Below are positions 7,317-56,970 of a stretch of DNA of 64,000 bases, piece after piece. Positions within the stretch are counted from its first letter, which is position 1. Every line of letters begins with the position of its first letter. A model generated the notes under the pieces. It was not told the DNA's origin, did no database searches, and saw only the letters and a program-made list of their open reading frames with translations. Source of the stretch: Arthrobacter sp. zg-Y769 (GTDB lineage: Bacteria > Actinomycetota > Actinomycetes > Actinomycetales > Micrococcaceae); contig NZ_JAJJOE010000003.1 of NCBI RefSeq assembly GCF_020907405.1, positions 186,001 to 250,000 on the forward strand, in the 5' to 3' direction. The position numbers and the translations under genes are program-made.

Positions 7317-7362
7317 AGTAGATTTCGATTAGTTCGTAAATCGTTAATCAGGAGGCACCACG

Positions 7363-7587
7363 GTGGAAGTAAAAATCGGCATTCAGAATGTAGCCCGCGA
7401 AATTGTCTTCGAATCCAGCCAGAGCGCTGAAGAGGTTGCCGACGCAGTGGAGCAGTCCCTCGCCAACGGCGCCCTGCTCCGTCTCAAGGACGTCAAGGGC
7501 CGGCTGATCGTTGTTCCCGGTGCTTCCATCGGCTACGTCGAGATCGGCGCCGAGGAAGTCCGCCGCGTTGGTTTCGGCGCCCTCTAA
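7363..7587 (+). CDS. DUF3107 small conserved actinobacterial protein
   Basis: A 74-residue protein starting MEVKIGIQNVAREIVFES and ending in RRVGFGAL, matching the actinobacterial DUF3107 family of unknown function. The GTG at 7363 follows CAGGAGGC, a strong ribosome site. The family often lies near a TetR regulator, a ferritin-like protein and a DEAD-box helicase, and all three are within 4 kb here. The role is unknown. Confidence 0.85.
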   Translation: MEVKIGIQNVAREIVFESSQSAEEVADAVEQSLANGALLRLKDVKGRLIVVPGASIGYVEIGAEEVRRVGFGAL

Positions 7588-7599
7588 CCCGACGCTTCC

Positions 7600-7899
7600 A
7601 TGCTTAGCCTGATCCTGGTCACGCTGACCGCCGTTGCCGCGGGGTTCGCCGTCTGGGCCGCTGACCGCCACCGGGCCTTATACGGCGCGCTGCTGCTCCC
7701 GGGTATCTCCGTGTGTGCTGCGCTCCTGACCTGGCTGGCGCTGCGGGCGGCCGGCGTGACCGGTTTTGAGGCGGACTGGATCGGCTGGGCCGTCCCGGCG
7801 GCAGTGTCCGTCCTGGCGCCGATAGTGGCGGCCGTTCCGATTGGCCGCAGCCGCGCCAAGGCGGACACGGCCGAGACGGAGCGCATCCTGCGCCTCTAG
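7600..7899 (+). CDS. Small three-helix membrane protein
   Basis: A 99-residue hydrophobic protein with three predicted membrane segments (about residues 2-20, 29-50 and 63-81) and a short charged tail. It starts 12 bases after the DUF3107 stop and is probably cotranscribed with it. I do not recognise a named family. A stem-loop terminator follows. Confidence 0.7.
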   Translation: MLSLILVTLTAVAAGFAVWAADRHRALYGALLLPGISVCAALLTWLALRAAGVTGFEADWIGWAVPAAVSVLAPIVAAVPIGRSRAKADTAETERILRL

Positions 7900-7954
7900 A
7901 TCCCGTGGTGCCGGGAACCGGCAACGGATCTGCCGGACCCGCACGAAACGTCGG

Positions 7955-7984
7955 AAGGGCGATGCTGCGGCACCGCCCTTTTTT
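7955..7984 (+). terminator. Rho-independent terminator after DUF3107/membrane-protein unit
   Basis: AAGGGCG at 7955-7961 pairs with CGCCCTT at 7974-7980, followed directly by TTTT. It ends the rightward TetR/DUF3107 unit. Confidence 0.75.
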
Positions 7985-8023
7985 CGTGTCCCGCTTGCTC
8001 CGTTCGCGTTACGGCGATGCGGA

Positions 8024-8884
8024 TTACGACACGGCGCGGTGCGGGATCGTCTGCGGGATGGCGGGCGGCGACATCCGGGCCAGTTCGTGTGCGAACACGC
8101 CGGCCGCTATCCGGTGTCCTTCCGGGCTCAGGTGCCTTCCGTCCGGACGCAGCCTGCCGTTCAGTCCATACCGTGCCCACCAGTTCCCCGGGGTGAGGAA
8201 ATCGATTCCCTGTTCGGCGGCCACGGCGGCGAGCACCCGGTCCACCTCGCTGCGGGGTCCGGTGCCGTCACCGATGACCCCCACCATGACAATCCGGACG
8301 GACGGGTAGCTTTGCCGCAGGCCGCGGATTAGCCGGAGCGCTTCGGCGCGGATGTCTGAGGCTGGATGGGTGATGTCATTGCCCCCGCCCTGAAGCAGGA
8401 TCAACCGCGGCGTACCCCACGGGAGCAGCCACTGGTGCGCTTCCAGCGCCCGGGCATATCCGGCCACTGAGCCGTTCCCCTCGACGTAGCCGGTTCCGAT
8501 GGCGCCCCGGATGATGGCAGGGTACCCGGCCTGTTCCAGCCCCAGTCCCACCCAGGTATCCGGACCGGCCTGCGAGTCGCCGATCACCAGGGCAGAGTCC
8601 TCCACTCCCGGAACTACGGACATCATCCGGCCGGTCCGGGGCAGATAAACCAGCGATCCGGCAGCCGGAGCCGCGGGGGCAGCCGTTTCGCCTTCCACAG
8701 GCCAGCTCACCGCCGGCGCGGGCAATGCTTCGACAGGAACGGCGCTGCCCGTCGCAAGCGCTCCCGCCGTCCCGCCCGCTCCGGGGTCCGGCCGGACAGC
8801 CGGTGCCGCGGCCAGCAGCAGGACCGCAAGAACCACTGCGGCGAGGGCGCGCACCGCCCACTTCCGTGTTGCTTTCCCCCGCAC
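8024..8884 (-). CDS. Exported SGNH/GDSL-type hydrolase
   Basis: A 286-residue protein with an N-terminal membrane or signal segment (AVRALAAVVLAVLLLAAAP) and an Ala/Pro-rich linker, then an SGNH hydrolase fold. VIGDSQAG carries the nucleophile Ser. QGGGNDITHP is the Gly/Asn block. DGRHLSPEGH carries the catalytic Asp-His pair. Such enzymes are esterases or lipases acting on cell-envelope or extracellular esters; the substrate cannot be inferred. The start is GTG at 8884. It lies downstream of the ferritin-like gene on the same strand with a 68-base gap. Confidence 0.85.
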   Translation of the reverse strand: MRGKATRKWAVRALAAVVLAVLLLAAAPAVRPDPGAGGTAGALATGSAVPVEALPAPAVSWPVEGETAAPAAPAAGSLVYLPRTGRMMSVVPGVEDSALVIGDSQAGPDTWVGLGLEQAGYPAIIRGAIGTGYVEGNGSVAGYARALEAHQWLLPWGTPRLILLQGGGNDITHPASDIRAEALRLIRGLRQSYPSVRIVMVGVIGDGTGPRSEVDRVLAAVAAEQGIDFLTPGNWWARYGLNGRLRPDGRHLSPEGHRIAAGVFAHELARMSPPAIPQTIPHRAVS

Positions 8885-10028: not shown

Positions 10029-11735
10029 TTGAACACTGAATTTTCCCAGGTTGATGACAGTCGTCACCTCACTGCCGATGACAGCACCGAAGAACTGACG
10101 GTCGCGGACACCTTGGCCGTCAAGGCCCAGGCCGAGGAAATCCCCGAACTCACCTTCGCCGATTTCGGTGTCCGTGCGGACATCGTCGAGTCCCTGGCCG
10201 ACGCCGGCATCACGCACCCCTTCCCCATCCAGTCGATGACGCTGCCCGTTGCCCTCAGCGGCCACGACATCATTGGCCAGGCGAAGACGGGCACCGGCAA
10301 GACGCTCGGTTTCGGCATTCCCGCACTGCAGCGGGTGGTGGGCCCGGAGGACAAGGGCTACGCCGAACTCGCCGTCCCCGGCGCGCCGCAGGCCCTGATC
10401 GTGGTGCCGACCCGTGAACTGGCCGTCCAGGTGGCGGGCGACCTCACCACCGCTGCCCGCCGGCGCGGCGCCCGCATCGTCACCATTTACGGCGGCCGTG
10501 CCTACGAACCGCAGACGGAGGCCCTGGCCGCCGGCGTCGAAATCGTGGTCGGTACCCCGGGCCGCCTGATCGACCTCTACAACAAGAAGCACCTCTCGCT
10601 GAAGAACGTGCGGCTTGTCGTCCTCGACGAGGCCGACGAAATGCTGGACCTCGGTTTCCTGCCCGACGTCGAAACCCTGATGGCTGCCACGCCCGCCGTC
10701 CGCCAGACCCTGCTGTTCTCGGCCACCATGCCCGGCGCCGTCGTTTCCATGGCCCGCCGCTACATGACCAAGCCCACCCACATCCGCGCGGCTGATCCCG
10801 ACGATGAAGGCCTGACGAAGAAGGACATCCGCCAGGTGGTCTACCGGGCGCACAACCTGGACAAGAGCGAAGTGGTGGCCCGCATCCTGCAGTCCCGCGG
10901 CCGCGGCCGCACCATCATCTTCACCAAGACCAAGCGCACCGCCGCCAAGCTGTCCGAGGAACTCGTGGACCGCGGTTTCGCCGTGGCCGCGATGCACGGC
11001 GACCTGGGCCAGGGTGCCCGCGAGCAGGCCATGCGCGCCTTCCGCAATGAAAAGGTGGATGTGCTGGTAGCCACCGACGTCGCCGCACGCGGCATCGACG
11101 TCGACGACGTCACCCACGTGATCAACTACCAGTGCCCCGAAGACGAGAAGACCTACCTGCACCGCGTCGGCCGTACCGGCCGCGCCGGACACAAGGGCAC
11201 CGCAGTCACCTTCGTGGACTGGGACGATGTTCCCCGCTGGGGCCTGATCAACAAGGCCCTGGGCCTGGACCAGGCGGAGCCGGTGGAAACCTACTCCTCT
11301 TCCCCGCACCTGTACACCGACCTGGACATCCCCGAAGGCACCAAGGGACGCCTGCCCCGCAACAAGCGCACCCATGCGGGCATTGATGCAGAAAAGATCG
11401 AGGACCTCGGCGAGACCGGCAAGTCCGGCGGACGCAGCACCTCTTCGTCCTCCCGCGAGGGCGGCCGCTCCGGCCGGGGAACCGGCTCGCGCAGCGGCTC
11501 CGACAACGCCCGCAGCGGTTCACGCGACGGATCCCGGCGCAGCAGCACCCGTTCCGGCGAGGCCCGGACCGGTGAACGGCGAACCGCGGACGCGCGGACC
11601 GCGGAGTCCCGCCCGGCCGAGACCCCTGCCGCAGCGCCGGCCGTGGACGGTGCGGCTTCGGACCGGCCGCGCCGCAGCCGGACCCGCCGCCGCAACGGCG
11701 AGGTTGTCCCCAAGACCAGCCCGGCCGCCGAATAG
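10029..11735 (+). CDS. DEAD-box ATP-dependent RNA helicase
   Basis: A 568-residue RNA helicase for ribosome assembly, mRNA decay or cold adaptation. The motifs are in order: Q motif (FPIQSMTLPVAL), AKTGTGKT, PTRELAVQ, GTPGRLID, VLDEADEMLD, SATMPG, TDVAARGIDVDDV and HRVGRTGRAG. The last 150 residues form a basic Arg/Ser/Gly-rich disordered tail, probably for RNA binding. TTG at 10029 comes straight after an in-frame stop and is the only start upstream of the Q motif region, with no clear ribosome site. The DNA methyltransferase gene follows after 18 bases. Confidence 0.93.
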   Translation: MNTEFSQVDDSRHLTADDSTEELTVADTLAVKAQAEEIPELTFADFGVRADIVESLADAGITHPFPIQSMTLPVALSGHDIIGQAKTGTGKTLGFGIPALQRVVGPEDKGYAELAVPGAPQALIVVPTRELAVQVAGDLTTAARRRGARIVTIYGGRAYEPQTEALAAGVEIVVGTPGRLIDLYNKKHLSLKNVRLVVLDEADEMLDLGFLPDVETLMAATPAVRQTLLFSATMPGAVVSMARRYMTKPTHIRAADPDDEGLTKKDIRQVVYRAHNLDKSEVVARILQSRGRGRTIIFTKTKRTAAKLSEELVDRGFAVAAMHGDLGQGAREQAMRAFRNEKVDVLVATDVAARGIDVDDVTHVINYQCPEDEKTYLHRVGRTGRAGHKGTAVTFVDWDDVPRWGLINKALGLDQAEPVETYSSSPHLYTDLDIPEGTKGRLPRNKRTHAGIDAEKIEDLGETGKSGGRSTSSSSREGGRSGRGTGSRSGSDNARSGSRDGSRRSSTRSGEARTGERRTADARTAESRPAETPAAAPAVDGAASDRPRRSRTRRRNGEVVPKTSPAAE

Positions 11736-11753
11736 CGGCGACGTAGGCCGGCC

Positions 11754-12650
11754 ATGAGCACCCCTTTGTGGACGCCGGACGGCGGGTCGCTGGTGGTACA
11801 CGCGGATAACGCGGAGTTCCTCCCGACCCTGCCGGACGGCTCCTTCACCATGATTTACGTGGATCCGCCCTTCAACACGGGCAGGTCCCAGCGCCGGCAG
11901 CAGACCACCATGGTCCGCAGCGCCGACGGCAGCGGCGACCGGATCGGGTTCAAGGGCCGCAGCTACAGCACGGTCAAGGGTCTGCTCTCAAGTTACGACG
12001 ACGCCTTCGAGGATTACTGGGCGTTCCTGGAACCCCGGCTGGCGCAGGCCTGGCGGCTGCTGGCCGACGACGGCACCCTGTACGTGCACCTGGATTACCG
12101 CGAGGTGCACTACGCGAAAGTCATGCTGGACGCGTTGTTCGGCAGGGACTGCTTCCTGAACGAAATTATCTGGGCCTACGACTACGGCGGACGGGCGAAA
12201 AACCGGTGGCCGGCCAAGCACGACAACATTCTGGTCTATGTAAAGAACCCCGACGCGTACCACTTCGACAACGCCGAGGTGGACCGTGAACCGTACATGG
12301 CCCCGGGCCTGGTGACGCCCGAAAAGGTGGCGCTGGGCAAGCTGCCCACCGATGTCTGGTGGCACACCATCGTGTCCCCCACCGGCCGGGAGAAGACCGG
12401 CTATCCCACGCAGAAACCCGAAGGCCTGCTCCGGCGTGCCGTCGCGGCCAGCAGCCGCGAGGGCGACTGGGTCCTGGACTTCTTTGCCGGATCCGGCACA
12501 CTGGGCGCCGTTGCAGCCAAGCTGGGCCGGAAATTCGTCTGCGTGGATGCCAATCCCCAGGCCATCGAGGTTATGTCCCGGCGGCTCGGTTCCGCGGCAA
12601 CGGTGCTCTCCGCCGAAACAGGATCACCGCTTCCCGCCGCCGGCGCCTAG
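11754..12650 (+). CDS. Orphan site-specific DNA methyltransferase (beta class)
   Basis: A 298-residue amino-methyltransferase acting on adenine N6 or cytosine N4. The catalytic motif IV DPPFNTG is near residue 37 and the S-adenosylmethionine motif FFAGSGTLG is near residue 245. The order IV, target region, I marks the beta class. GYPTQKPEGLLRRAV is also typical. No restriction enzyme gene is nearby, so this is a solitary methylase, possibly regulatory. It is 18 bases behind the helicase and probably in the same transcript. The recognition sequence is unknown. Confidence 0.88.
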   Translation: MSTPLWTPDGGSLVVHADNAEFLPTLPDGSFTMIYVDPPFNTGRSQRRQQTTMVRSADGSGDRIGFKGRSYSTVKGLLSSYDDAFEDYWAFLEPRLAQAWRLLADDGTLYVHLDYREVHYAKVMLDALFGRDCFLNEIIWAYDYGGRAKNRWPAKHDNILVYVKNPDAYHFDNAEVDREPYMAPGLVTPEKVALGKLPTDVWWHTIVSPTGREKTGYPTQKPEGLLRRAVAASSREGDWVLDFFAGSGTLGAVAAKLGRKFVCVDANPQAIEVMSRRLGSAATVLSAETGSPLPAAGA

Positions 12651-18418: not shown

Positions 18419-19609
18419 GTGCCAGTATCCGAACCGGCTTCCCCCCTGGAAGCGCAGGTGCTCCGCGCCCTGGACACTGTCCAGGACCCCGAACTGCGCC
18501 GCCCCATCACCGAACTCGGGATGCTCAAGGACGTGCGCGTAGATGCCGGCGGCGGGGTGGCAGTGGATGTGCTGCTGACTATCGCCGGCTGTCCGCTGCG
18601 CGACACCATCACCGCCGACGTCGAGCGTGCGCTTGCCGCGGTGCCGGGAGTAAACGCCGTCAGCGTGTTCCTTGACGTGATGACCCCGGAGCAGCGCAAT
18701 GCGCTCAAGGACCGGCTGCGCGGCGGGGACCCGGTGCGGACCATCCCCTTCAACCGCCCCGATTCGCTGACCCGCGTGTATGCCGTGGCCAGCGGCAAGG
18801 GCGGCGTCGGCAAGTCCAGCGTCACCGTCAACCTCGCAGCGGCCATGGCATCGCTTGGACTGCGCGTGGGCATTGTCGACGCCGATGTGCACGGGTTCTC
18901 CGTCCCCGGACTCCTGGGCATCACCCGGCCGCCCACCCGCGTGGACGAGATGATCCTGCCGCCGGTGGCCTACGGCATCAAGACCATCTCGATCGGCATG
19001 TTCGTGGACGGCAACCAGCCGGTGGCCTGGCGCGGACCCATGCTCCACCGCGCGCTGGAGCAGTTCCTGACCGACGTGTACTTCGGGGACCTGGACGTCC
19101 TGTTCCTGGACCTTCCTCCCGGCACCGGGGATATCGCCATTTCCGTAGGGCAGCTCCTGCCGGGGTCCGAGATCCTGCTCGTCACCACTCCGCAGAGCGC
19201 CGCAGCGGACGTTGCCGAACGCGCCGGCAGCGTTGCCCGGCAGACCGGGCAGAAAGTCACCGGCGTGATTGAGAATATGTCCTGGCTGGTACTGCCCGGC
19301 GGGGAACGCCTGGAGGTGTTCGGTTCCGGCGGAGGCGCTGCGGTGTCCGGCCGGCTCGGCGACACCCTGGGCTATCCGGTTCCGCTGCTGGGCAGCATCC
19401 CGCTCGATGTCGCCCTCCGCGAAGGCGGCGACGGCGGCCTTCCGGTCGTCCTCGCCGACGCGGCCGGGGCGGCAGCTATTGACGGCGCTGCGGAAAACAC
19501 GGGGGAAGCCGGAGATACGGCCGCTGCCGAACTACGCCGGATTGCCCGGGAGCTGGCACACCGGCCGCGTGGCCTTGCCGGACGCAGCCTCGGGGTCAGC
19601 CCGGTCTAA
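18419..19609 (+). CDS. mrp: Mrp/NBP35-type Fe-S cluster carrier ATPase
   Basis: A 396-residue P-loop protein. The N-terminal 90 residues form a MIP18/DUF59 domain (VLRALDTVQDPELRRPI). The ATPase domain has the deviant Walker A motif SGKGGVGKSS near residue 125, then DADVHGFSVPGLLG and LDLPPGTGD. Family members carry Fe-S clusters to apoproteins. GTG start at 18419, four bases after the DUF1003 stop. It converges with tatB. Confidence 0.92.
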   Translation: MPVSEPASPLEAQVLRALDTVQDPELRRPITELGMLKDVRVDAGGGVAVDVLLTIAGCPLRDTITADVERALAAVPGVNAVSVFLDVMTPEQRNALKDRLRGGDPVRTIPFNRPDSLTRVYAVASGKGGVGKSSVTVNLAAAMASLGLRVGIVDADVHGFSVPGLLGITRPPTRVDEMILPPVAYGIKTISIGMFVDGNQPVAWRGPMLHRALEQFLTDVYFGDLDVLFLDLPPGTGDIAISVGQLLPGSEILLVTTPQSAAADVAERAGSVARQTGQKVTGVIENMSWLVLPGGERLEVFGSGGGAAVSGRLGDTLGYPVPLLGSIPLDVALREGGDGGLPVVLADAAGAAAIDGAAENTGEAGDTAAAELRRIARELAHRPRGLAGRSLGVSPV

Positions 19610-19618
19610 GGCGCCCTG

Positions 19619-20068
19619 CTAGGTGGCTTCGACGTCGAACGGGGCCGGCTGGCCCGCGGCGAGGCGTTCCAGCGGTTTCACCGCAGGCGGCCGGGACGCG
19701 GGTGCCGCCCCCGGCGACGGCGCAGTGGAGGATGCAGTGGAAGACTGGGCGGCCTGAACCCGGGGAGCGGGCGCCGTTGCGGGCCGTCCGCTCGCGGCCT
19801 TGGCGGCGTCGTCGAAATCGTCCACCAGCGCTTCCTTGATGATCCGCCGCGGGTCATACTGCCGTGGATCCAGCTTCCGCCAGTCCACCTCGTCGATCTC
19901 CGGGCCTACTTCTTCGCGCAGTTGCTCACGCGCCCCGGAGGCCATCCGCCGCACTTCCCGCACGAGGCGGGCCAGCTGCGAAGCGTATTCGGGCAGGCGT
20001 TCGGGACCCAGTATCACCACGGCGATTATTGCCAGAAGGATGAACTCGTAACCGTTGATTCCTACCAC
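19619..20068 (-). CDS. tatB: Sec-independent translocase subunit TatB
   Basis: A 149-residue protein with one N-terminal membrane helix (YEFILLAIIAVVILGPERLP), the GPERLPEY hinge, an amphipathic helix and a Pro/Ala-rich tail: the normal TatB layout. It helps recognise twin-arginine substrates. GTG start at 20068. In many actinobacteria tatB follows sigE, its anti-sigma gene and htrA; htrA is absent here. Confidence 0.92.
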   Translation of the reverse strand: MVGINGYEFILLAIIAVVILGPERLPEYASQLARLVREVRRMASGAREQLREEVGPEIDEVDWRKLDPRQYDPRRIIKEALVDDFDDAAKAASGRPATAPAPRVQAAQSSTASSTAPSPGAAPASRPPAVKPLERLAAGQPAPFDVEAT

Positions 20069-20116
20069 TCTTGAAGACTACCTTTTCCCGGGAGCGGGGA
20101 GCCACTTGCGGGCACC

Positions 20117-21043
20117 CTAGAGGCTCCAGCCGGTGCGCGTGAACATGGCAAGACCGCGGACGATACGCTCCATCGGCTCCGGATCGGCGCCGACGCGGGC
20201 AAGGCGGGCCGATTCGAGCAGGGAAAGCTCCTCGACTGCCCGCGGCAACGACTTCTCCGGCAGGCTGGATTCAAAGGTGTACGTGACGCTGCCTGCGGCC
20301 ACGACCTGCTGGCCGGGGTGCTCGTCCGAACCGAACACCGCGGGCCCGGTCTGCGGCCCCGCCACGGAGAACCCGTCTTCCGATACGGGCCGGCCGGTGA
20401 CGGCGTTAATCACGGGCTGGTTGTCCTCTCCCGGGAGCGGATGCTGTTCCACGAGCCGGATGCGTTCCCCGTCTGCGGTGAAGGTCATTTCCACGGCGGG
20501 ACGCCCCTGCACCCGGAGGGAACGGGCGGACTCCAGCTTCAATCCCAGGTCAGCCAGTTCCGGGCAGGTCCACCCGTGCGCACGCAGCAGCTGCAGCTGA
20601 TCCGCTCCGAGGCTGCCGCCTCCGGCAACTTCGTCCCACCCGGCAGCCATGGCAGCACGCGCGCCCGTCTGCGCCGGAACCTCCAGGATGCTTCCCGCGT
20701 AATAGGCGCCGCCGAGCAGCACGGCACCCGCCGCGGCGACCGCTCCGGCTGCGGCAAGGGCGTGGCTGCGCCGGTCAAGGACCTTTTGCGGCTGCTCGGG
20801 CAGAGGGCCGCCGGATTCCGGGCAGCCGGACTGCGCGGCCGCCACGTACCGCAGCCGTGCGGACAGTTCCGGGCCGGCGTCGGGTACCCGGGCCGAACGC
20901 AGGCGGCTGCGCAGCCGGCGCTCTTCGGCTACGGCAGCACGGCAGCAGGCACAGCGGGAAAGATGCGCCTCGATGGCCTGCCGGCGCCGGGGGGTCGTTT
21001 CGCCGTCGATGTAGTCGTGCAGATGCCGGGTGGGGTGTCGCAC
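20117..21043 (-). CDS. Zinc-finger anti-sigma factor (RseA-like)
   Basis: A 308-residue membrane anti-sigma factor for the adjacent SigE. The N-terminal zinc anti-sigma motif HLSRCACC (H-x3-C-x2-C) lies near residue 28. One membrane helix follows at about residues 94-116, and about 190 residues are extracytoplasmic. GTG start at 21043, three bases after the sigE stop. It is longer than mycobacterial RseA because of the external domain, which may sense envelope stress. The partner is inferred from position and the zinc motif. Confidence 0.87.
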   Translation of the reverse strand: MRHPTRHLHDYIDGETTPRRRQAIEAHLSRCACCRAAVAEERRLRSRLRSARVPDAGPELSARLRYVAAAQSGCPESGGPLPEQPQKVLDRRSHALAAAGAVAAAGAVLLGGAYYAGSILEVPAQTGARAAMAAGWDEVAGGGSLGADQLQLLRAHGWTCPELADLGLKLESARSLRVQGRPAVEMTFTADGERIRLVEQHPLPGEDNQPVINAVTGRPVSEDGFSVAGPQTGPAVFGSDEHPGQQVVAAGSVTYTFESSLPEKSLPRAVEELSLLESARLARVGADPEPMERIVRGLAMFTRTGWSL

Positions 21044-48870: not shown

Positions 48871-49112
48871 CGGTGACGCGCTTCTACATGCCGTCGTTTA
48901 TTTAGTGCCGCGGACCGCGGTGAAGTACCAATCCCCTATGTCCCTCTCGGCAATTCCAAAGTGCACGTCGGCTTGCCCTAACCTCCGGCTTCCGGCCCCA
49001 GCGGGCGGCTGTCTCGTCTCAGGTCGCCCAGGCTTCGAGCGCGTTGCAGTGCGGTGCCGGGTGACAGAATGCGGGTCGAGTGCACGAGTGTTGCTCCTGC
49101 GGGTTTACTGAG
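48871..49112. other. Non-coding stretch
   Basis: No credible gene, repeat or terminator was recognised in these 242 bases between two remnants. Confidence 0.5.
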
Positions 49113-49760
49113 CTATCGGGGGACGACTCGATCCATGAGGCGGGCAGGCAGGAGCCGCGCCATTGGCAGGGTGAAGGCAGCATCCGTGCCGAGGCCGTAT
49201 CTGGTTCGAGGACGCTTGGTGGTGGCGATCTTCGTGATCTTTTTCGCGGCCTGGTCTGCCGTCATCGCCCGCTGCAGGAACGAGGACAGGAAGCTCACGG
49301 TTGAAGAGATCAAGGCCCCGTAGAGGCGGGTATGCTCCCTGTTCATACCCAGTGCGAGTTTGAGGGAGAGCGGCCCGCTCTTGGCCGCCATCGGGGTCTT
49401 CACTCCGCCGGACTGGACGATCACGACTTGGATGCCCTGCGAAGCGGGCAGCAACGCCTGGATGACCCGTATGTGTCCGAAGAGGTTGACCTCGAACTGC
49501 TCCCGCCATGTGTCGAGCGGGAGGACCTCGATGGGAGCGTTGATCTCGATCCCGGCGTTGTTGATCACCGCTCGCAGCAGTCGCGCCTGAGGATCAAGGG
49601 CGACTCGGGCGGCGAGCGCCTCGACGTGTTTGCCAATGGTGATGTCCAGCATCACCGGTTCGATGCGCTCAGCGCGGATCGCGTCAGCGTCCTCGTCCCG
49701 TCTGACGCCGGCGAGGACGTGGTAACCGCGAGCAGCGAGCTCACGCGCGGATCTAGGCAC
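49113..49760 (-). pseudogene. Short-chain dehydrogenase remnant
   Basis: The frame (215 residues) keeps ELAARGYHVLAGVRRDED, the NNAG motif (AVINNAGIEINAP) and the C-terminal part of an SDR. The N-terminal TGxxxGIG cofactor motif is missing. About 30-40 residues with the catalytic Ser and Tyr-x3-Lys are deleted near 49430, where QALLPA joins QVVIVQSGGVKTP. It cannot be an active dehydrogenase. Its 5' cut lies about 40 bases from att-like copy E. Confidence 0.8.
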
Positions 49761-49798
49761 TGCCTATCAATGTTGTCCCGATCGAGGGCGAAGACAGA

Positions 49799-49902
49799 AA
49801 GGCCCGGAATGCGCTGAGCATCCCGGGCCTTCCTCGAGCAATCCGTTGAGAGCTGGACGTTGAACCTAAACTCCACCACGGTCCGTAGCCAGGCAACCTC
49901 TT
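49799..49902 (-). repeat. ychF-end att-like site, copy E (outermost)
   Basis: On the minus strand it reads GAGGTTGCCTGGCTACGGAC then GTGGTGGAGTTTAGG, encoding EVAWLRTVVEFRFNV, but the stop TAG has become CAG. A hairpin terminator (49799-49807 with 49823-49831) follows about 25 bases later. It is the most diverged copy, as expected for the oldest or original outer junction. Confidence 0.85.
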
Positions 49903-50150
49903 GATGAGTCCCGCCGAAGGCCGACCAGACCCGCCGACCCTGCCTACGTCCCCGCCTGATCCCCTCTCAGCGGATCGTTGCTCATCGTCCGCTCGGTCTC
50001 CTCGAAGAGCAGACTCGGTCCCCGTAGGAACACCAAAAACGCGAAGCTCAGGTCCGAGATTTCAGGCAACACTGAATGGGGGCGTTTCTTGATCTTTAAC
50101 ACATGCCCCAAACGCGGCCGGTAACGGCAAGGCCCGCCAACAGCTAGTTC
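49903..50150. other. Non-coding stretch in cassette 4
   Basis: About 250 bases without a convincing open frame. Together with the palindrome that follows, it fills the space between copy E and the small membrane protein gene. Confidence 0.5.
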
Positions 50151-50211
50151 GGCTGCCCGTATAAGCAACGCCCCGGCCAGAAGGCCCTGGGCGTTGCTTA
50201 TACGGGCAGCC
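50151..50211. repeat. Large palindrome with 22-23-bp perfect arms
   Basis: 50151-50172 is exactly complementary to 50190-50211, and one more C-G pair extends the stem inward. The 15-base loop itself contains GGCC/GGCC. No T-run follows on either side. It is a cassette-internal structure of unknown function, possibly a recombination, replication or RNA element. Confidence 0.85.
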
Positions 50212-50291
50212 CTGTGAATCAAAACGGACGGGTGCGCTGGGTCGTCTGCCCACCAGTCTCTGGGAGGCAGAACACCTAGACTTCAGCTGAG

Positions 50292-50765
50292 TCAGTCGAC
50301 TTTTTCGTATGACGAAACCACGGGTGTCATACCGATGACGTCAAAGAAACCCATCAAGGTGCGCGTCGCCTGGCCCAGTTCGAACTCGAACCTACCTCCC
50401 TGCGCCAGCTCAGCGGCCATCACCTCGTTGGCCGCCTGGTCAAATTCATGAATCAAGGACAATGTCCCGCAGTCAGACGTCCTGATGATTAGCTCCGTCC
50501 TTGATCCGACATTACGACCGGCACCACTGTAGGTGCCTCCCTCAGCATCTGTGACAGTGCATTCCATTCGAACCCGGTGGTCGTCGTCATAGGAGTTGAT
50601 AACCCACGGTCCAACCGTTAGCGCTAGGACGAGCACCCCAAAGGTGGGCAAAATTCCCCAAAAGGCCAAATTACTCTTCAAAGACCGTGACTGCTTCTTC
50701 GGCGGATCCGCTGAGACGTTGCCCTCGGCTTGTGGGTTCAATTCATCCTCCTCTCCTTTACCCAA
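50292..50765 (-). CDS. Small membrane protein of cassette 4, unknown
   Basis: A 157-residue protein with a charged N terminus, one membrane helix (AFWGILPTFGVLVLALTVGP, about residues 34-56) and an external domain of about 100 residues (TVTDAEGGTYSGAGRNVGSR). I recognise no family. It is the only gene of the cassette between copies D and E and points the same way as ychF. Confidence 0.65.
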   Translation of the reverse strand: MGKGEEDELNPQAEGNVSADPPKKQSRSLKSNLAFWGILPTFGVLVLALTVGPWVINSYDDDHRVRMECTVTDAEGGTYSGAGRNVGSRTELIIRTSDCGTLSLIHEFDQAANEVMAAELAQGGRFEFELGQATRTLMGFFDVIGMTPVVSSYEKVD

Positions 50766-51022
50766 TTAAACCTGTTCCCCCTTGATACTAATTTGATAAC
50801 TCATGGTGCCGAACGATGGGTCCACCGGAGCCGTTGAGCCCACCGCTGATAACGGCCGGAACCAACGGATGCGGCACCAATCAGCGCCACGCCCACCGGA
50901 CCGCCAACACCGGATCCACCGTAAGAAATGAACCATCTGTCGACCGGAGATTCCTTCCGTTTACGACCGTCCAAAGCACTTCTGGACCAGGAACCCCACT
51001 AGGATATTTACTTCTCGAAAAA
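50766..51022. other. Non-coding stretch in cassette 4
   Basis: About 260 bases between the membrane-protein gene and copy D. A short Pro/Thr-rich rightward frame (50816-51067) runs into the att terminator and lacks a ribosome site, so it is not called. Confidence 0.5.
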
Positions 51023-51147
51023 CTATCGATTCGGGTACAAGAAAAGCCGCCCTCGACGTTTCCGTGAGGGCGGCTTTCTCAATGCTTCAGGCGAAGAATC
51101 TAGACATTGAATCTAAACTCAACCACATTCCGTAGCCGAATACCCTC
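51023..51147 (-). repeat. ychF-end att-like site, copy D
   Basis: On the minus strand GAGGGTATTCGGCTACGG leads into AATGTGGTTGAGTTTAG, encoding EGIRLRNVVEFRFNV and TAG. A terminator follows (51043-51054 with 51066-51077). A 115-base stretch (51023-51137) matches copy B (54642-54756) with six mismatches. Confidence 0.9.
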
Positions 51148-51385
51148 TGGAAGCTGCCAGTCGACCCCGAGGCAAGGGAACCGCCCACCTCCGGCTTCAG
51201 GGCGCCCGACACGTCCGCATCGGCTGGCAGCCGCATATCTAGGTCGGAAGGCGCGCCATAATCGGCCAACTCCCAATTGCGTATATGGTTCGAGGTGACT
51301 TGACGCGGCGATCTGTTGTGACCATTCAACACCGCGGAATTCCGAAGGCGTTTCGACGTCGAACGAAACTGGAGACTTAATCGTA
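51148..51385. other. Leader of the DUF4230-like gene
   Basis: About 240 bases with no gene seen. It should hold the promoter of the rightward gene starting at 51386; no clear elements were recognised. Confidence 0.45.
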
Positions 51386-52003
51386 ATGAACTTTTTCAAA
51401 GCACGGGTTCTGCTTTGGCCGCTCCTGCTGATCACCTTCTTGGTTCTCGCGGGAATGGGCGCCGCTTTAGCGTTCGGTGGACTCACTTTCAATTCGCTGT
51501 TCACCAGCAGTTCGAGCGAACGCGATTCCCAGGTGGTTCAGTCCGTCACGCGCATCCAAGAGGTCGCCCTGCTGAGCCTTTACATCGAGGGTGTCGCGAG
51601 AGCCGAAAGCAATCGCGAGATACTCGGCGTGGCCATACCCGCGAGCGAGACAACGACGCTGATCCAGTACAAGTTCGACGCAAAATTAGGCATCGATGGG
51701 TCACAGGTGAAGATCGAACCCACCGGCCCAGAGTCGTTTCTCGTGACTATCCCTGAATTCATCGGCATCGGCTTTGACGAGCCCGTGTTCGAGGACGCCG
51801 TCGAGGACAAAAACGCGCTTAGCTGGCTGGCACCGCCAGCCGTTCAAACCCGCATGATCAACAACATTCTCAGCGACGAGAACAAGCAGAAGTACATCAG
51901 CCAAAACGAAGCAGAATTGAAAGAGCAGGCCAAAGTGTTCTACTCCGGGATCATCGCAGGCGTCGATCCCGAGGTCACCGTCGCCTTTGAGTTCGCAGGG
52001 TAG
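51386..52003 (+). CDS. DUF4230-like membrane protein of cassette 3
   Basis: A 205-residue protein with one N-terminal membrane helix (LLWPLLLITFLVLAGMGAAL) and an outer or cytosolic domain. VTRIQEVALLSLYIEGVARA and the later IQYKFDAKLGIDGSQVKIEP fit the DUF4230 pattern. The function is unknown. It is the only complete cassette gene on the plus strand. The stop is at 52001-52003. Confidence 0.72.
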   Translation: MNFFKARVLLWPLLLITFLVLAGMGAALAFGGLTFNSLFTSSSSERDSQVVQSVTRIQEVALLSLYIEGVARAESNREILGVAIPASETTTLIQYKFDAKLGIDGSQVKIEPTGPESFLVTIPEFIGIGFDEPVFEDAVEDKNALSWLAPPAVQTRMINNILSDENKQKYISQNEAELKEQAKVFYSGIIAGVDPEVTVAFEFAG

Positions 52004-52156
52004 ATGCCCGCAGCGCCGCGTCCTTGTTTAGACTAGGTATTTCGGGCGCCTGCGGGCGAGAAATCCTGATTGGTGGTGTAAGCATCGTCGGCAAGCAGTC
52101 GGAGGTAACCGACTGGCGCCTGCCGGAATAGACACTTATCAAAGCTTGCCCCCGAT

Positions 52157-52267
52157 ATAGAAATGCCGCCCTCTTACGTTTTCGCGGAGGGCGGCATTTC
52201 TATTGATTCAGAAGAGAAATCTAGACATTAAACCTAAACTCCACCACATTCCGTAGCCGAATAACCT
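52157..52267 (-). repeat. ychF-end att-like site, copy C
   Basis: On the minus strand GAGGTTATTCGGCTACGG leads into AATGTGGTGGAGTTTAG, encoding EVIRLRNVVEFRFNV and TAG. The terminator (52159-52173 with 52187-52201) has the same stem as the native ychF terminator (AGAAATGCCGCCCTC). Confidence 0.9.
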
Positions 52268-52319
52268 CACAACCAGGAGTTTCAGAGACATAATCGAGGC
52301 TAGCCTCACGGCCCGATCA

Positions 52320-52548
52320 CAGCACGTTCCCAGACCTCTCCCCCGCGCAGGTAGTCGCGCTACAGGACGCCTAGCTCACCAATTCCGACAGACTGCTGCG
52401 GGCAGCACTGGCAATGCTCGAGAACGAGAACGTGCCGCTCGCGTGATCCTGGCTGCCGGCGCTTGACGCCGTGCGACAGAAATATCGGGGTCTGCTGCAG
52501 GAACCATCGTCGGCGTCTCAAATCGCTGACATCCGCGCCTCTGCCTAA
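52320..52548 (+). pseudogene. Decayed coding remnant
   Basis: A plus-strand frame reads VVALQDA, stop (TAG 52372), LTNSDRLLRAALAMLENENV, PLA, stop (TGA 52444), SWLPALDAVRQKYRGLLQEP and ends at TAA 52546. The amino-acid sequence is plausible for a helical protein tail, but two in-frame stops show decay. The family is unknown. Confidence 0.5.
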
Positions 52549-52577
52549 GCGGAAACGCAGTCGTTGGACGAGTCGGG

Positions 52578-53702
52578 CTACAGCCCCATGATCTCCCGCT
52601 TTTTCGCTGCGAACTCCCCCTCCGAGAGAAGCCCTGCGTCCATCAGTTCTTTCATCTTCTTCACAGCCTCGATCTGCTCATCGAAGGACAGCATGGTTGT
52701 CTGACCTGCCTGCGCCCCTGTCTGAGTGTTCATGCCATGTGCGAGACTCATGCCAAAGATCGTCCCGCCGCCATCACCGAGTCCGTGTGCCAGCACACCC
52801 TGAGCGATTGTCTGCTGTGCAGAAATGTTCGAGGACTGCTGTGAGACATTTTCGTAGGCCTTGAGGTTCATCACGTTTGTGGAGTACTGCTTGACCAGGG
52901 TCCGCGCTTCGGGAGTGAATTCGATGTTCTCGATGCCCACATTGACCACTTCGATGCCGAAGCGCTCAGCCCAGCTCCGCGCACCAATGCTGCCAGCCGA
53001 GATCTGGGCGGCGATCGTGTGAGCCTGAGAGGGTAGCTGTGAAATGCGGAACATCGATGACAGCGAGTTCAGCGCTACCGTGAAGGACTGGATGAACTCG
53101 GAGACGAGCTGCTGACGGGCCTCCTGGGTGTTGAAGCTGTAGTGGAAAACGTTGGCAGGCACGAAGCTCCTGATGAACGTTTCCACGTTGACGATCCGCA
53201 GTGAGAAGGTACCGAATGCCCTGATCTCCAAATCCGTGCCATAGAACAGGTCGTTATAAACGAGCGGTCCTCGAGTGCCGAACTTGATACCTCGAATCTC
53301 CCGGAGGTTAACGAAGGCAATATGCTTCTGGTCTGAGGCCTGTCCGCCAAAGCCAACGCGGCCGGCTATCTGCTCAACAAACGACTCCATGACACCTTCG
53401 CCGTTAAAGACGCTGCTCTGGCCGTTCTGGTACTCATAGCCCCCACTCTGAGTAATAATGGCCTCGATGCCGGCCTGACTGAAAATGACGGCGGCAGTAT
53501 TTTCGGGCACGAATATTTTGGAACCGTTGGAGATGACCCCCATTGACCCCTTGTAATTCGTGCCTCGACCATTGTTTGTCTGCTTAAGGACGCCCGGAAC
53601 TATTGCCGTACCCTCGTCGAAGTGGCCAGCTGTGATGATGTCCTTCCACTGGTCAGCAAAGGTGCCAGTTAGTGCGCCTGTAAATGCTTGAATGATGCCC
53701 AT
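52578..53702 (-). CDS. SPFH-domain protein with C-terminal SHOCT motif
   Basis: A 374-residue protein. The SPFH/virion-core-type domain covers about residues 30-270 (FVPENTAAVIFSQAGIEAII, FGTFSLRIVNVETFIRSF). A Gln/Gly-rich hinge follows, and the C terminus is a SHOCT module (SFDEQIEAVKKMKELMDAG). The family resembles YdjI, a partner of PspA-type membrane-stress proteins in Bacillus. ATG at 53702 follows GAGG; the frame upstream to 53864 overlaps the neighbour and is not used. Confidence 0.82.
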   Translation of the reverse strand: MGIIQAFTGALTGTFADQWKDIITAGHFDEGTAIVPGVLKQTNNGRGTNYKGSMGVISNGSKIFVPENTAAVIFSQAGIEAIITQSGGYEYQNGQSSVFNGEGVMESFVEQIAGRVGFGGQASDQKHIAFVNLREIRGIKFGTRGPLVYNDLFYGTDLEIRAFGTFSLRIVNVETFIRSFVPANVFHYSFNTQEARQQLVSEFIQSFTVALNSLSSMFRISQLPSQAHTIAAQISAGSIGARSWAERFGIEVVNVGIENIEFTPEARTLVKQYSTNVMNLKAYENVSQQSSNISAQQTIAQGVLAHGLGDGGGTIFGMSLAHGMNTQTGAQAGQTTMLSFDEQIEAVKKMKELMDAGLLSEGEFAAKKREIMGL

Positions 53703-53718
53703 TGCAGTGTCGCCTCGG

Positions 53719-54288
53719 TCAGAGTCGGATAGGAGTGTCGCAGTAGCCACAGACGATGGCTTGCCCCCGGACGCCTGAGACTGGGGCGCCGCAGGAACCG
53801 CAATCACTCGCGACAGGCACCGCTGCGGCAGCGGCGGCGATCTCACCCTTGGACTTGAATCCAAAGGTATCTTTGAAGGCGTCCACCGTGTCTTTCACGG
53901 CCCCTGCAACCTTCTCCGCTCCTGAAGAGTTGAGCGAGGCAGCCGGGGCGCCAGTAATAACCTCGTTGATCTTCTTAGACCAGAAGGTGGCTTCTTTCTT
54001 GTTCGGGAAGCCGAAGTGTTCCGTGCCATTGTGGAAATACACGTCCAGGGCTGGTGAGCCGTTCCGCTTGCCGAGAAGCGCCTGAGCTTGACCTTGGAAA
54101 ATCTTGATCTCGCGAAGTGGGAAGACCTTAAATCCCTTTTTGTTGCCGAAAGCGCCCTTCTTGATGAGCACAAGGTTCTGACTGGTGAGGATCAACTCGT
54201 CAGTGTAAACCGCTAAGAATCCACCGTGGAGCACCCCCTCATACCTATGCACAAACGACTCGTTGGGCTGAAGATTGTATCCCGCCAC
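53719..54288 (-). CDS. PH-like domain and zinc-ribbon protein
   Basis: A 189-residue protein. The first 110 residues look like a bacterial PH/GRAM domain (YTDELILTSQNLVLIKKGAF). After a linker comes a zinc ribbon, CGSCGAP...CGYCDTPIRL, with four Cys. The GTG at 54288 is preceded by AGGAGAGATCA, so the longer frame to 54357 is not needed. It ends 16 bases before the SPFH gene, and the two surely form a unit. Confidence 0.75.
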   Translation of the reverse strand: MAGYNLQPNESFVHRYEGVLHGGFLAVYTDELILTSQNLVLIKKGAFGNKKGFKVFPLREIKIFQGQAQALLGKRNGSPALDVYFHNGTEHFGFPNKKEATFWSKKINEVITGAPAASLNSSGAEKVAGAVKDTVDAFKDTFGFKSKGEIAAAAAAVPVASDCGSCGAPVSGVRGQAIVCGYCDTPIRL

Positions 54289-54641
54289 TGATCTCTCCTG
54301 TATGGGCCGTAAACAATGATGCTGTTGGCCCACCCTGGCAAGCTGGCAGTCCTCCACCCCAGCATAGAGTCACCCGAGGGACAGTTCGTGCATTACCTCT
54401 TTCTGCTTCATCGCACTGTCACCAATCGGGAGGCCGCCGGACGGCGGGCTCATACCCCGGGACCTCTTTCGGCACGTTGCCTCCTCTGAAATGTCGTCCT
54501 CGACTCACTCATCGCCGGACCAATTCCCTGGTTGGGGCGCCAGCCATCCTCGATGACCCGGCTCCCCAAGCCAGACGCGGACGACTCAGCAATAGACTGC
54601 ACTGCTCCGGTTCTGTTCCAAAGGGTCATATGGCTATATAG
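54289..54641. other. Non-coding stretch in cassette 2
   Basis: About 350 bases upstream of the PH/zinc-ribbon gene. It should contain its promoter; no gene, repeat or clear promoter pair was recognised. Confidence 0.5.
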
Positions 54642-54768
54642 CTATCGATTCGGGTACAAGAAAAGCCGCCCTCGGCGTTTCCGTGAGGGCGGCTTTTTCA
54701 ATGCTTTAGGCGAAGAATCTAGACATTAAATCTAAACTCCACCACGTTCCGTAGCCAATCAACCTCTT
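54642..54768 (-). repeat. ychF-end att-like site, copy B
   Basis: On the minus strand GAGGTTGATTGGCTACGG leads into AACGTGGTGGAGTTTAG, encoding EVDWLRNVVEFRFNV and TAG. The terminator arms are 54661-54673 and 54685-54697. Similarity to copy D continues 20 bases past the terminator and then stops abruptly. Confidence 0.9.
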
Positions 54769-54965
54769 ACATTCGCAGTCAGATTACCTTCGAGGTAGGG
54801 GAAGCCGAGCGTTACGTCCCGGTTGATCTGAGGAATGTCTCCGGCGGCGGCAGCATGGGCCGCTGACGGAACCCCGCTCCCGCGCCGGAGGTCCTGCCGC
54901 CGGCGCGCGGCACCGGACCCTGCCAGCGGCGCCGCCGTCCTTTGCCACCTGGGCGCTTCTTGGTA
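54769..54965. other. Non-coding stretch in cassette 1
   Basis: About 200 bases, with a GC-rich patch near 54830-54950 that differs from its surroundings. A short Arg-rich frame crosses it but has no ribosome site and is not called. Confidence 0.45.
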
Positions 54966-55577
54966 TCAGCGACTGGTTTGGAGTGCCTCAGTGTAGAGTT
55001 TCGGGTCGTTCCTGGTTTCAGCTGAGATGACAAGATGACTGCCGTTGAGACGCTGCGCAAAGTACCCCAAATAGGGCAGTACGATGATCGTCGTGAGCCC
55101 GTCTTGCCATGCCTTAACCAGCGCCGGAAGGCTATCTTGTTCGGACCGGGAAGGAAAGTTCGGCGTTGTCTGTTTATCCCACGTATTGAAGGCCACCAGA
55201 TCTACCCCATCCTCGCCGTATTCGACGGGCCAGAACGGTGGCACAATCGGGTGGAGTTCCTGTCCAGGGCTCGAGAGTTTTTGCATCTCTTCCTGTGAGA
55301 TCGGTTCGTTTTGAACTGTGCTTACGTTGAACCAGTCCCAGCTGCGGTCCCATTGCTGCTTCCAGCGTTCATCCCATACCTCACGGCTTGCTGACGCCGG
55401 GATCTTCGATGCACCCGTCGCAGGCACAGGGCTGAGTTCCGGAATTTCGATGTCCTGGGCGATCATCCATGCCTGTCGGATAAAGAGAAGCATCTTCAGG
55501 TTCTGCGCGTGGTCATCAATCCGGATGGTCATTTCCTTTGGCCAAACAGCCCGCCGTCTAAGCCCCATTCCCCACAT
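54966..55577 (-). CDS. Unknown 203-aa protein of cassette 1
   Basis: A soluble, Trp-rich protein (DERWKQQWDRSWDWFNVS near residue 70; MLLFIRQAWMIAQDIEIPEL near 30). I recognise no family and no catalytic motif. AAGGAGTCACT precedes ATG at 55577, an excellent ribosome site. It is the only gene of the cassette next to ychF and has the same orientation. Confidence 0.72.
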   Translation of the reverse strand: MWGMGLRRRAVWPKEMTIRIDDHAQNLKMLLFIRQAWMIAQDIEIPELSPVPATGASKIPASASREVWDERWKQQWDRSWDWFNVSTVQNEPISQEEMQKLSSPGQELHPIVPPFWPVEYGEDGVDLVAFNTWDKQTTPNFPSRSEQDSLPALVKAWQDGLTTIIVLPYLGYFAQRLNGSHLVISAETRNDPKLYTEALQTSR

Positions 55578-55823
55578 AGTGACTCCTTGATTTGTCGGCC
55601 GGACGGAGAACAGCCGTTGGTGCCAAGCATCGCATTCGACCTGCCTTCAGTAAATGGTTCGCTCAAAGCTACAGGCCCCGATCGGAAATGTCCGCTGGGA
55701 TCGGGGCCTCCGGAGGCGAACTAAGTCGTGACCCGTGTTGGCTATTCCTCTTCAAAGGCTCGTGGGCGGTACCGCACGAGATCCGCGAAGGCTGGTGACG
55801 ATACAACCCTCGATCCGTAAACA
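55578..55823. other. Leader region of cassette 1
   Basis: About 250 bases between the ychF terminator and the cassette gene. Because a terminator precedes it, the cassette gene must have its own promoter here; none was identified with confidence. Confidence 0.45.
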
Positions 55824-55911
55824 AGAAATGCCGCCCTCAATGTTTCCGGTGAGGGCGGCATTTCTATTGAATCAGACGAAGAATCTATACATTAAACCTA
55901 AACTCAACCAC
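55824..55911 (-). repeat. Native ychF 3' end and terminator, att-like site copy A
   Basis: The last codons of ychF (GTGGTTGAGTTTAGG, VVEFRFNV and TAG) are followed by a 16-bp-arm terminator (55824-55839 with 55850-55865). Upstream of GTGGTTGAG the sequence is ychF coding DNA and differs from copies B-E, which locates the likely crossover in or near this core. Confidence 0.9.
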
Positions 55912-56970
55912 GTCGCCGTCGACCATGACGTAGTCCTTGCCTTCGATGCGGACCTTGCCGCGGGACTTGGCCTCGGCCATGGAGCCGGCGTCGACCAGAT
56001 CGTCGAAGGACACAACTTCGGCCTTGATGAAGCCGCGCTGGAAGTCGGAGTGGATGACGCCGGCGGCCTGGGGCGCGGTGTCTCCCTTGCGGATGGTCCA
56101 GGCGCGGGTTTCCTTGGGGCCGGCAGTCAGGTAGGTCTGCAGGCCGAGGGTGTGGAAGCCGACGCGGGCCAGCTGGTCCAGGCCGGATTCTTCCTGGCCG
56201 TTCATTTCCAGCATCTCGCGGGCTTCTTCTTCGTCCAGCTCCACCAGGTCGGCTTCGAGCTTGGCGTCGAGGAAGATCGCGTCTGCCGGTGCCACCAGTT
56301 CGCGCAGTTCGGCCTGGCGGTCCGGGTTGCCCAGCACGGCGTCGTCGACGTTGAACACGTAGATGAACGGCTTGGCGGTGAGCAGGCTCAGTTCGCGCAG
56401 GTGTTCCATGTCCAGCTTGTCGCTGGCGACGGAGGAGAAGATCGTGTCGCCGCGTTCGAGGACGGTGCGGGCGGCCTCCATGGCGGCCAGCTGCGCGGCG
56501 TCGCGCTTCTTGATCTTGACTTCCTTCTCCACCCGCGGGATCGCCTTTTCCAGCGTCTGCAGGTCAGCCAGGATCAGCTCGGTGTTGATGGTTTCCATGT
56601 CCGAACGCGGGTCCACCTTGCCGTCCACGTGGATGACGTCGGGGTCATCGAACACGCGGATGACCTGGGCAATGGCTTCGGCTTCGCGGATGTTGGCGAG
56701 GAACTGGTTACCCAGACCCTCACCCTCCGAAGCGCCCTTGACGATCCCGGCGATGTCCACGAAGGACACGGTTGCGGGCAGGATGCGCGCCGAACCGTGG
56801 ATTTCGGCCAGCTTGGCCAGCCGCGGGTCGGGAAGGGACACGACGCCGACGTTCGGTTCGATGGTGGCGAACGGATAGTTCGCCGCCAGCACGTTGTTGC
56901 GGGTCAGCGCATTGAACAGGGTTGATTTGCCGACGTTGGGCAGGCCGACGATGCCAATAGTAAGAGCCAC
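55885..56970 (-). CDS. ychF: YchF/OLA1-family P-loop ATPase
   Basis: A 361-residue redox- and ribosome-linked NTPase. G1 is GLPNVGKST, G3 lies in FVDIAGIVKGASEGEG, and the G4 position reads FNVDDA in place of NKxD, fitting the family's ATP preference. A C-terminal TGS domain ends GDVVEFRFNV. GTG start at 56970. Its 3' end is the site around which the cassette array is built, but the protein is complete. Confidence 0.96.
   Translation of the reverse strand: MALTIGIVGLPNVGKSTLFNALTRNNVLAANYPFATIEPNVGVVSLPDPRLAKLAEIHGSARILPATVSFVDIAGIVKGASEGEGLGNQFLANIREAEAIAQVIRVFDDPDVIHVDGKVDPRSDMETINTELILADLQTLEKAIPRVEKEVKIKKRDAAQLAAMEAARTVLERGDTIFSSVASDKLDMEHLRELSLLTAKPFIYVFNVDDAVLGNPDRQAELRELVAPADAIFLDAKLEADLVELDEEEAREMLEMNGQEESGLDQLARVGFHTLGLQTYLTAGPKETRAWTIRKGDTAPQAAGVIHSDFQRGFIKAEVVSFDDLVDAGSMAEAKSRGKVRIEGKDYVMVDGDVVEFRFNV

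Follow-up and report, generated by a model that had tools for sequence, protein, structure and literature searches.

A row of cassettes behind ychF

We analyzed a 64,000-bp stretch of Arthrobacter sp. zg-Y769 (contig NZ_JAJJOE010000003.1, positions 186,001 to 250,000), hereafter the window, in which a row of short cassettes begins at the 3' end of ychF and repeats that gene end. The features are given below from ychF outward, with B and B' denoting the halves of the native ychF site and P and P' the arms associated with mobile DNA.

55885..56970, minus strand: ychF, encoding 361 aa with the YchF-GTPase_C domain (Pfam PF06071, E = 8.9e-39)
55889..55911, minus strand: core of the inferred attB (B-B'), the 3' end of ychF, ending VVEFRFNV and stop (from site alignment)
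54742..55907, minus strand: cassette 1, 1166 bp, bounded by the inferred GT crossover; it contains the B' end with terminator, a 203-aa protein of unknown family (54966-55577, minus) and the P arm
54723..54756, minus strand: P-B' site S4 (arm plus core), core 54723-54745
52244..54741, minus strand: cassette 2, 2498 bp, with a protein of unknown family (53719-54357, minus) and a second protein with SPFH/Band7 and weak SHOCT matches (52578-53705, minus)
52225..52258, minus strand: P-B' site S3, core 52225-52247
51123..52243, minus strand: cassette 3, 1121 bp, with a 205-aa protein (51386-52003, plus) that matches DUF4230 weakly (24.2 bits against a cut-off of 27)
51104..51137, minus strand: P-B' site S2, core 51104-51126
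49876..51122, minus strand: cassette 4, 1247 bp, with a 157-aa protein of unknown family (50292-50765, minus)
49857..49890, minus strand: P-B' site S1, diverged and without a stop codon, core 49857-49879
49092..49875, minus strand: decayed cassette 5, with the remnant of a short-chain dehydrogenase/reductase (SDR) gene (49113-49760, minus) and no recognizable right-hand site

The five copies of the ychF end lie where the original prediction, made from the window alone, had placed them, and all are on the minus strand. The accompanying claim that each copy includes the coding end and a terminator needs correcting for the 49.86-kb copy, in which CAG replaces the stop TAG and the hairpin differs from the GCCGCCCTC..GAGGGCGGC hairpin common to the other four. 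Each cassette is laid out with the ychF-type end first (stop and GCCGCCCTC hairpin in 4 of 5 copies) and an arm like GAGGTTATTCGGCTACGGAAC last. This arm had been described as a foreign upstream half shared by four sites, and we recovered it as such: the 34-bp pattern of arm plus core occurs at four places in the window, exactly at three of them and with 2 mismatches at 49.86 kb (GGCTACGGACC), and gave zero matches in 100 shuffles. The sizes of the four complete cassettes also agree with the expected 1.1-2.5 kb. The row does not stop at 49.8 kb as had been supposed. The decayed fifth cassette, which has an intact counterpart in a relative (G022, 7075-8133, by alignment), extends the row to ~49.09 kb; the window protein and the G022 protein alike have SDR matches.

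The array has a GC content of 0.565, compared with 0.669 at 56-64 kb. Repeats inside the window are limited to the end segments, of at most ~126 bp, and sequence comparison found the cargos to be mutually unrelated, so the row is not a single segmental duplication. A search for tyrosine and serine recombinase domains, the two kinds covered, found neither in the cassettes, in line with their description as integrase-less with unrelated cargo.

Rows in related genomes

All 29 genomes of our genus sample were searched with the core pattern, which matched in 28 of them, 1 to 5 times each. Multiple matches in a genome were always on one contig and within ~15 kb, and a reversed control pattern had no match in the 29 genomes. 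We read ychF and ~18 kb downstream in 27 genomes; in the remaining genomes, G002 and G011, the gene for a large serine recombinase (LSR) lies downstream of ychF. By our detection rule, these 27 genomes hold 40 array sites, 0 to 4 per genome and spaced 528-11,632 bp apart, with at least one site in 19 genomes and none in 8. Five of the 40 were admitted through arm similarity, and one further, shifted site (G018, at 2126) was missed by the rule and left out of the count.

The relatives do not share a fixed gene order. A precise empty site is seen in G006, which from its core onward aligns to G004 from the last core onward, and four genomes (G010, G019, G020, and G021) have a common distal flank ~100 bp past the last core, preceded by 4, 1, 3, and 2 cassettes, respectively. 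These empty and alternative sites bear out the idea of serial site-specific insertion in which each insert brings a replacement ychF end. The peptide VVEFRFNV is kept in ychF itself in 27 of 27 genomes and in 27 of 40 array copies (p = 9e-4), as would be expected if selection as protein acts on the first copy only. A hairpin within 100 bp past the end accompanies ychF in 25 of 27 cases, array copies in 25 of 40, and random stretches in 62 of 2000. Rows can also vary in the number of related units: cassettes in five genomes (L040, L041, L042, L043, and L046 of G007, G008, G009, G010, and G014) are related via a gene of ~190-220 aa and unknown family, and form ~670-bp units of varying copy number.

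Cassettes shared between species

Cassette 1 of the window is the first cassette behind ychF in G009, G010, G020, G025, G016, and G019, and the second one in G015. The cassette that follows it differs among the window, G009, G010, G020, G016, and G015, and in G019 and G025 cassette 1 is the last. Its identity to the window copy (with that of ychF in brackets) is 99.9% in G009 (96.5%), 99.9% in G010 (97.2%), 99.7% in G020 (96.6%), 98.5% in G025 (92.6%), 97.7% in G016 (92.7%), 97.2% in G019 (97.1%), and 95.6% in G015 (90.3%). Two other species (G009 and G010) thus carry cassette 1 at 99.9% despite 2.8-3.5% divergence in ychF. Judged by these identities, the copies in G009, G010, and G020 reflect recent exchange of the exact unit. 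In G019, the identity of cassette 1 is not in excess of that of ychF. Among the other cassettes, cassette 3 is 97.5% identical over 1083 bp to one in G017 and 88% to one in G010, and cassette 4 is related to one in G027 (90-95%).

A serine recombinase at ychF

One IMG/VR contig carries the arm plus core with an adjoining LSR gene. The LSR of L182 has both expected domains (Resolvase, PF00239, 8e-29; Recombinase, PF07508, 1.2e-20). Near ychF in the 29 genus genomes, PF00239 was found in the two LSR genomes G002 and G011 only. A search of 395 family genomes at a threshold of E = 1e-40 found the LSR in 28 genomes from 14 of 32 genera. We examined the surroundings of 15 of the 26 besides G002 and G011, mostly the better matches, and ychF lay within the examined stretch in 10. 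Including G002 and G011, the tail of ychF is replaced in 11 of 12 LSR-adjacent genes, and 8 of these 11 tails carry the arm motif TAACsTC/TTACGTC. Named genomes with an LSR at ychF include Kocuria rhizophila (L080) and Schaalia (L138, with the LSR frame split). In four virus contigs, a site adjoins the LSR: an attP in two and an attR-type site in the other two.

In a tree, the 16 LSRs that have ychF or the core close by group together with 5 others (support 90/87), separate from 12 other LSRs, some of which are on long branches. A comparison of the LSR against plasmids gave no match at 1e-40. Microbacterium and Mycobacterium phages encode LSRs 35-48% identical to that of L182; for 6 of the 11 matching records, the stretches examined gave no match to the ychF core.

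Attachment sites

In G002 and G011, ychF ends in GTGGTGGAGTTCCG-TCACGGAATAACCTCT.. instead of FNV, giving the protein ends HGITSAAQGKK* and HGITSASQGKK*. Read on the opposite strand, this replacement is a cassette-type arm, from which the attP of the element is predicted to be an inverted repeat of the form P-GTGGTGGA-P'. Such sites occur in the virus contigs: one lies directly upstream of the LSR in a 37.8-kb contig (L202/L217), and a second, around GTCGTCGA, lies upstream of the LSR in a 58-kb contig (L204). The attP is an imperfect inverted repeat around GTSGTSGA, with a short core in common with attB and an arm symmetry of 18/22 in L202 and 15/22 in L204. Its P half resembles the cassette arm GAGGTTATTCsGTnACGGAAC, and its P' half replaces VVEFRFNV with a short basic tail.

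Compared with the reverse complement of P' from G002 and G011, the 40 array arms match at a mean of 16.3 of 22 positions, native B arms at 9.0, and shuffled arms at 5.7 (maximum 13 in 10,000). The P half closely resembles the right-end arm in 38 of 40 cassettes. When we repeated the test with the 35 sites admitted irrespective of arm (28 distinct arms), the mean was 16.1 and 26 of 28 scored at least 14, with a shuffle maximum of 14.

Variation within the core points to the place of crossover. Agreement at core index 11, 12, 17, and 20 is 0.91, 0.95, 0.77, and 0.86 between sites with the same right flank (22 non-independent pairs), 0.55, 0.55, 0.47, and 0.43 between those with the same left flank (258 pairs, of which only 32 do not include a ychF end), and 0.42, 0.43, 0.43, and 0.42 where neither flank is shared. 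These positions track the right flank, which places the crossover left of about index 11, consistent with the GT at index 3-4. In this scheme, ychF is the inferred attB (B-B'), LSR elements have the form B-P'..P-B', and every cassette has one P-B' site.

One genome, G172, shows an autonomous element with the same att sites adjoining cassettes. There, a mobilizable LSR element sits behind a P'-tailed ychF and heads a row of seven P-B' type sites; comparing the arms of five of them with the reverse complement of P' gave 16-20 matching positions of 22. Its LSR has the Resolvase (2.6e-27) and Recombinase (2.6e-13) domains, and its other genes encode a relaxase, a NikA-like protein, McrBC, methyltransferases, and a Fic protein. 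The element also contains an OrfB/TnpB-like gene (IS605, with a Cas12f1-like TNB domain; L248:15004-16533).

How the row could have formed

We propose, with a probability of roughly 0.8, that the window holds a row of cis-mobilizable cassettes laid at the ychF 3' end by a visiting LSR. An LSR element would enter attB at ychF, giving B-P'[element]P-B'. On excision, its attL (B-P') could pair with any downstream attR (P-B'), and the excised circle would take zero or more cassettes along. In a new host, the LSR element would leave alone, with the cassettes staying behind and ychF restored to VVEFRFNV. In this way, cassettes would hitch-hike with the LSR element and be deposited elsewhere. The arrangement read for the cassettes themselves is B-B'[cassette]P-B'. 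The window's draft genome yielded no LSR of this clade, so the row there is probably now a passive store whose movement would require an incoming LSR.

Several observations weigh against this explanation. In 5 of the 15 LSR genomes examined, there is no ychF in the stretch; G123, G150, G193, and G262 do have a ychF-type site there, and G214 has neither ychF nor such a site. The replaced tails of G324, G305, and G043 are without the arm motif, and G332 has an LSR beside a ychF that retains VVEFRFNV. The 16 LSRs associated with ychF or its core are not a clade on their own (p-AU = 5.6e-05). Two array arms score just 5 and 11 against the reverse complement of P', and the distal att site of G011 was not found. 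Within the core, index 8 (0.86 vs 0.72 and 0.76), 14, and 23 track the right flank weakly (22 non-independent pairs), and index 5 tracks neither flank. Near-identical copies of cassette 1 (the first site of L061 vs L042, L043, and L052) differ at index 5 and 14, where the differences are synonymous and very little else differs between the copies.

It is also conceivable, though unlikely in our view, that cassettes move as their own circles, with an LSR acting in trans to join the single P-B' site to attB and no hitch-hiking involved. Each cassette does have one P-B' site, B-B'[cassette]P-B' is the product expected from such a reaction, and single-cassette rows exist, for example in G019 and G025. 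However, known serine integrases recombine attP with attB, or attL with attR when a directionality factor is supplied; a reaction of P-B' with B-B' would be non-standard. Moreover, G172 shows the configuration that hitch-hiking predicts.

We consider it less probable again that homologous recombination via the ~100-bp shared ends and ychF is now the main mover of cassettes whose site-specific origin is older. Left ends recur before different cargo, with 51023-51148 and 54642-54767 being 92% alike, and the behavior of core index 5 would also suit such exchange. Yet a whole cassette is shared at 99.9% across species whose adjoining ychF genes differ by 2.8-3.5%, and the empty site in G006 is precise with respect to G004; both favor deposition by a visiting LSR.

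Tyrosine integrases of a ychF-adjacent family, which match each other at ~394-485 bits in phmmer, lie at the following positions:

L089:11115-12392
L104:11195-12478
L112:~11100-12247

In loci of Amycolatopsis, Myceligenerans, and Blastococcus, they are the next feature downstream of ychF (with Pfam support in the first two genera), and virus contig L201 has what looks by eye like the end of such a protein adjoining its LSR attR-type site. We think it very improbable that this family drives the array. Relatives at E = 1e-30 occur in only 3 of the 29 genus genomes (G007, G011, and G027), ~162, 189, and 170 kb from ychF, and no second core was found on the ychF strand in 10 kb of L089, L104, or L112. 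The protein end in L201 suggests that two kinds of recombinase, this family and the LSR, may share the ychF dock. An "integrase" in L060 (E = 0.001) was judged by eye to be a false match. In Gordonia spumicola (L115), a divergent 572-aa integrase (18970-20685, PF00589 below cut-off) adjoins the distal of two ychF-type sites (11053 and 20787), and had no phage or plasmid match at E = 1e-5.

The prospect that host XerC/XerD or an integron integrase drives the array is close to negligible: 14 of 29 genus genomes have just two Phage_integrase matches, which we read as XerC/XerD, but looking through the sequence by eye, with no model applied, revealed no attC-like or dif-like site, and the site and an LSR attP match half to half. 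The description of the array as integron-like is not supported as a mechanism, as no Phage_integrase (PF00589) match lies near ychF in the 29 genus genomes and the site matches the attachment site of an LSR.

Cargo of the cassettes

By a greedy rule, the cassettes contain 95 open frames of at least 80 aa. We scanned 20 mostly large proteins, a sample chosen by size, with Pfam and 10 proteins with PADLOC. Defence-like cargo included GmrSD restriction, NACHT, a KAP NTPase (PifA-like in PADLOC), two PIN-domain proteins, a DrmD-like helicase with a sacsin/TmtA-like partner, and an AAA/OLD-like ATPase, and these matches suggest that the larger cargo proteins are often defence-like. Among the four complete cassettes of the window, only the Band7 protein has a family above cut-off, with DUF4230 below it. 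NCBIfam, applied to 10 cargo proteins, gave matches for two (SDR and a weak bleomycin-binding-like match), and the matches shown were all below cut-off.

A HigBA-like cassette recurs in other families. It combines a HigB-like toxin with a helix-turn-helix protein and is found at ychF in Brevibacterium (L137:11120-11696) and Microbacterium (L096:11108-11684). These two cassettes have 86% DNA identity over 627 bp, and the ychF genes are 72% alike.

Breadth of the system and the YchF tail

When up to 2 mismatches are allowed, 21 of 80 ychF loci from named genomes have at least two core matches, although a few of these appear to be chance matches. Rows are clear in Pseudarthrobacter, Psychromicrobium, Kocuria, Nesterenkonia, Demequina, Microbacterium, Janibacter, and Brevibacterium. 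Outside the genus, ~23 of the 366 family genomes have at least two exact sites (counted by eye), not always on one contig. A tandem part-copy of the ychF core right after the first was noted in other genera (L072:12162-12208, L076:19024-19070, and L121:12260-12306).

The YchF tails encoded by elements (L248:2540-2620 and other attL sites) vary in sequence, and nearly all end in KK or KR. Examples are HGITSAGQGKK, SGLTSGGKK, TGLTSGGKK, HGGASGSGKK, and SGSASKR, with HAPTR in L204 as an exception. The shared KK/KR ends suggest a constraint on the replaced YchF C-terminus.

Relation to known systems and significance

Integron arrays and clusters of attC sites lacking integron integrases (CALINs) also consist of small cassettes with a common site and an integrase encoded elsewhere. 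The ychF array differs in that no IntI-type integrase was found near it, the matching recombinase is a serine integrase, and the recipient is the end of a coding gene. Well-known cases of accretion among cis-mobilizable elements (CIMEs) and integrative and conjugative elements use tyrosine integrases. CIMEs retain att sites but have no integration or transfer genes and depend on a neighbor for movement (as quoted in PMC3146451); the ychF array differs from them in its serine integrase and in having P-B' sites only.

Two serine-recombinase systems are of this kind. The SCC and ECC elements at rlmH, with the LSRs CcrAB/CcrC, resemble the ychF array in LSR insertion into a conserved gene's 3' end, with att repeats and several attR sites in one island; passages of PMC6222049 report multiple attR sites in 16 of 32 ECCs. 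The ychF array differs in gene and phylum, in its mostly one- to few-gene cassettes, and in that the LSR element itself swaps the tail of a host protein. The Dehalococcoides ssrA islands, with the DsiB serine recombinase, are likewise tandem units with direct repeats of one gene's 3' end, and 15 islands without an integration module were suggested to be cis-mobilizable by accretion, according to excerpts of PMC3146451. They occupy a tmRNA gene rather than a protein gene and differ in cargo and bacteria; at ychF, by contrast, the sequence reveals an attP and both half-sites, and insertion either restores or replaces the end of the protein. A pneumococcal prophage between dnaN and ychF has 14-bp direct repeats and an altered ychF promoter (PMC6375853), but it adjoins ychF at a place other than the 3' end, and the excerpts of that paper describe no array. 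No such system at ychF was found among the titles and abstract openings listed by searches of open-licence PubMed Central papers, and a term search of the main text of PMC12884075 found no mention of ychF.

The arrangement, for which the original prediction had no name, can be called tandem accretion of cis-mobilizable elements, a process put forward for SCC-like elements and the Dehalococcoides ssrA islands. Our best reading is that accretion by a serine integrase is of a kind known from those systems, and that the ychF site is new and present in many Actinobacteria. A bolder view, which we hold only tentatively and think doubtful, is that the ychF 3' end may be an Actinobacteria-wide dock at which LSR phages and mobilizable elements exchange a library of cassettes of one to a few genes, often for defence, via P-B' sites while switching the YchF C-terminus between the native FNV and a basic GKK tail encoded by the element; mobile DNA would thus control both a defence array and the end of a core protein.

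If true, the formation of the row by a visiting LSR would explain a swappable cassette array without an integron and would name the enzyme, an LSR clade, together with its attP and attB. Since the natural attB of this clade is the end of a coding gene, these LSRs may also serve as integration tools. The region downstream of ychF would be a predictable hotspot for defence-like genes in Actinobacteria, and the replaced C-terminal tail raises the question of its effect on YchF function.

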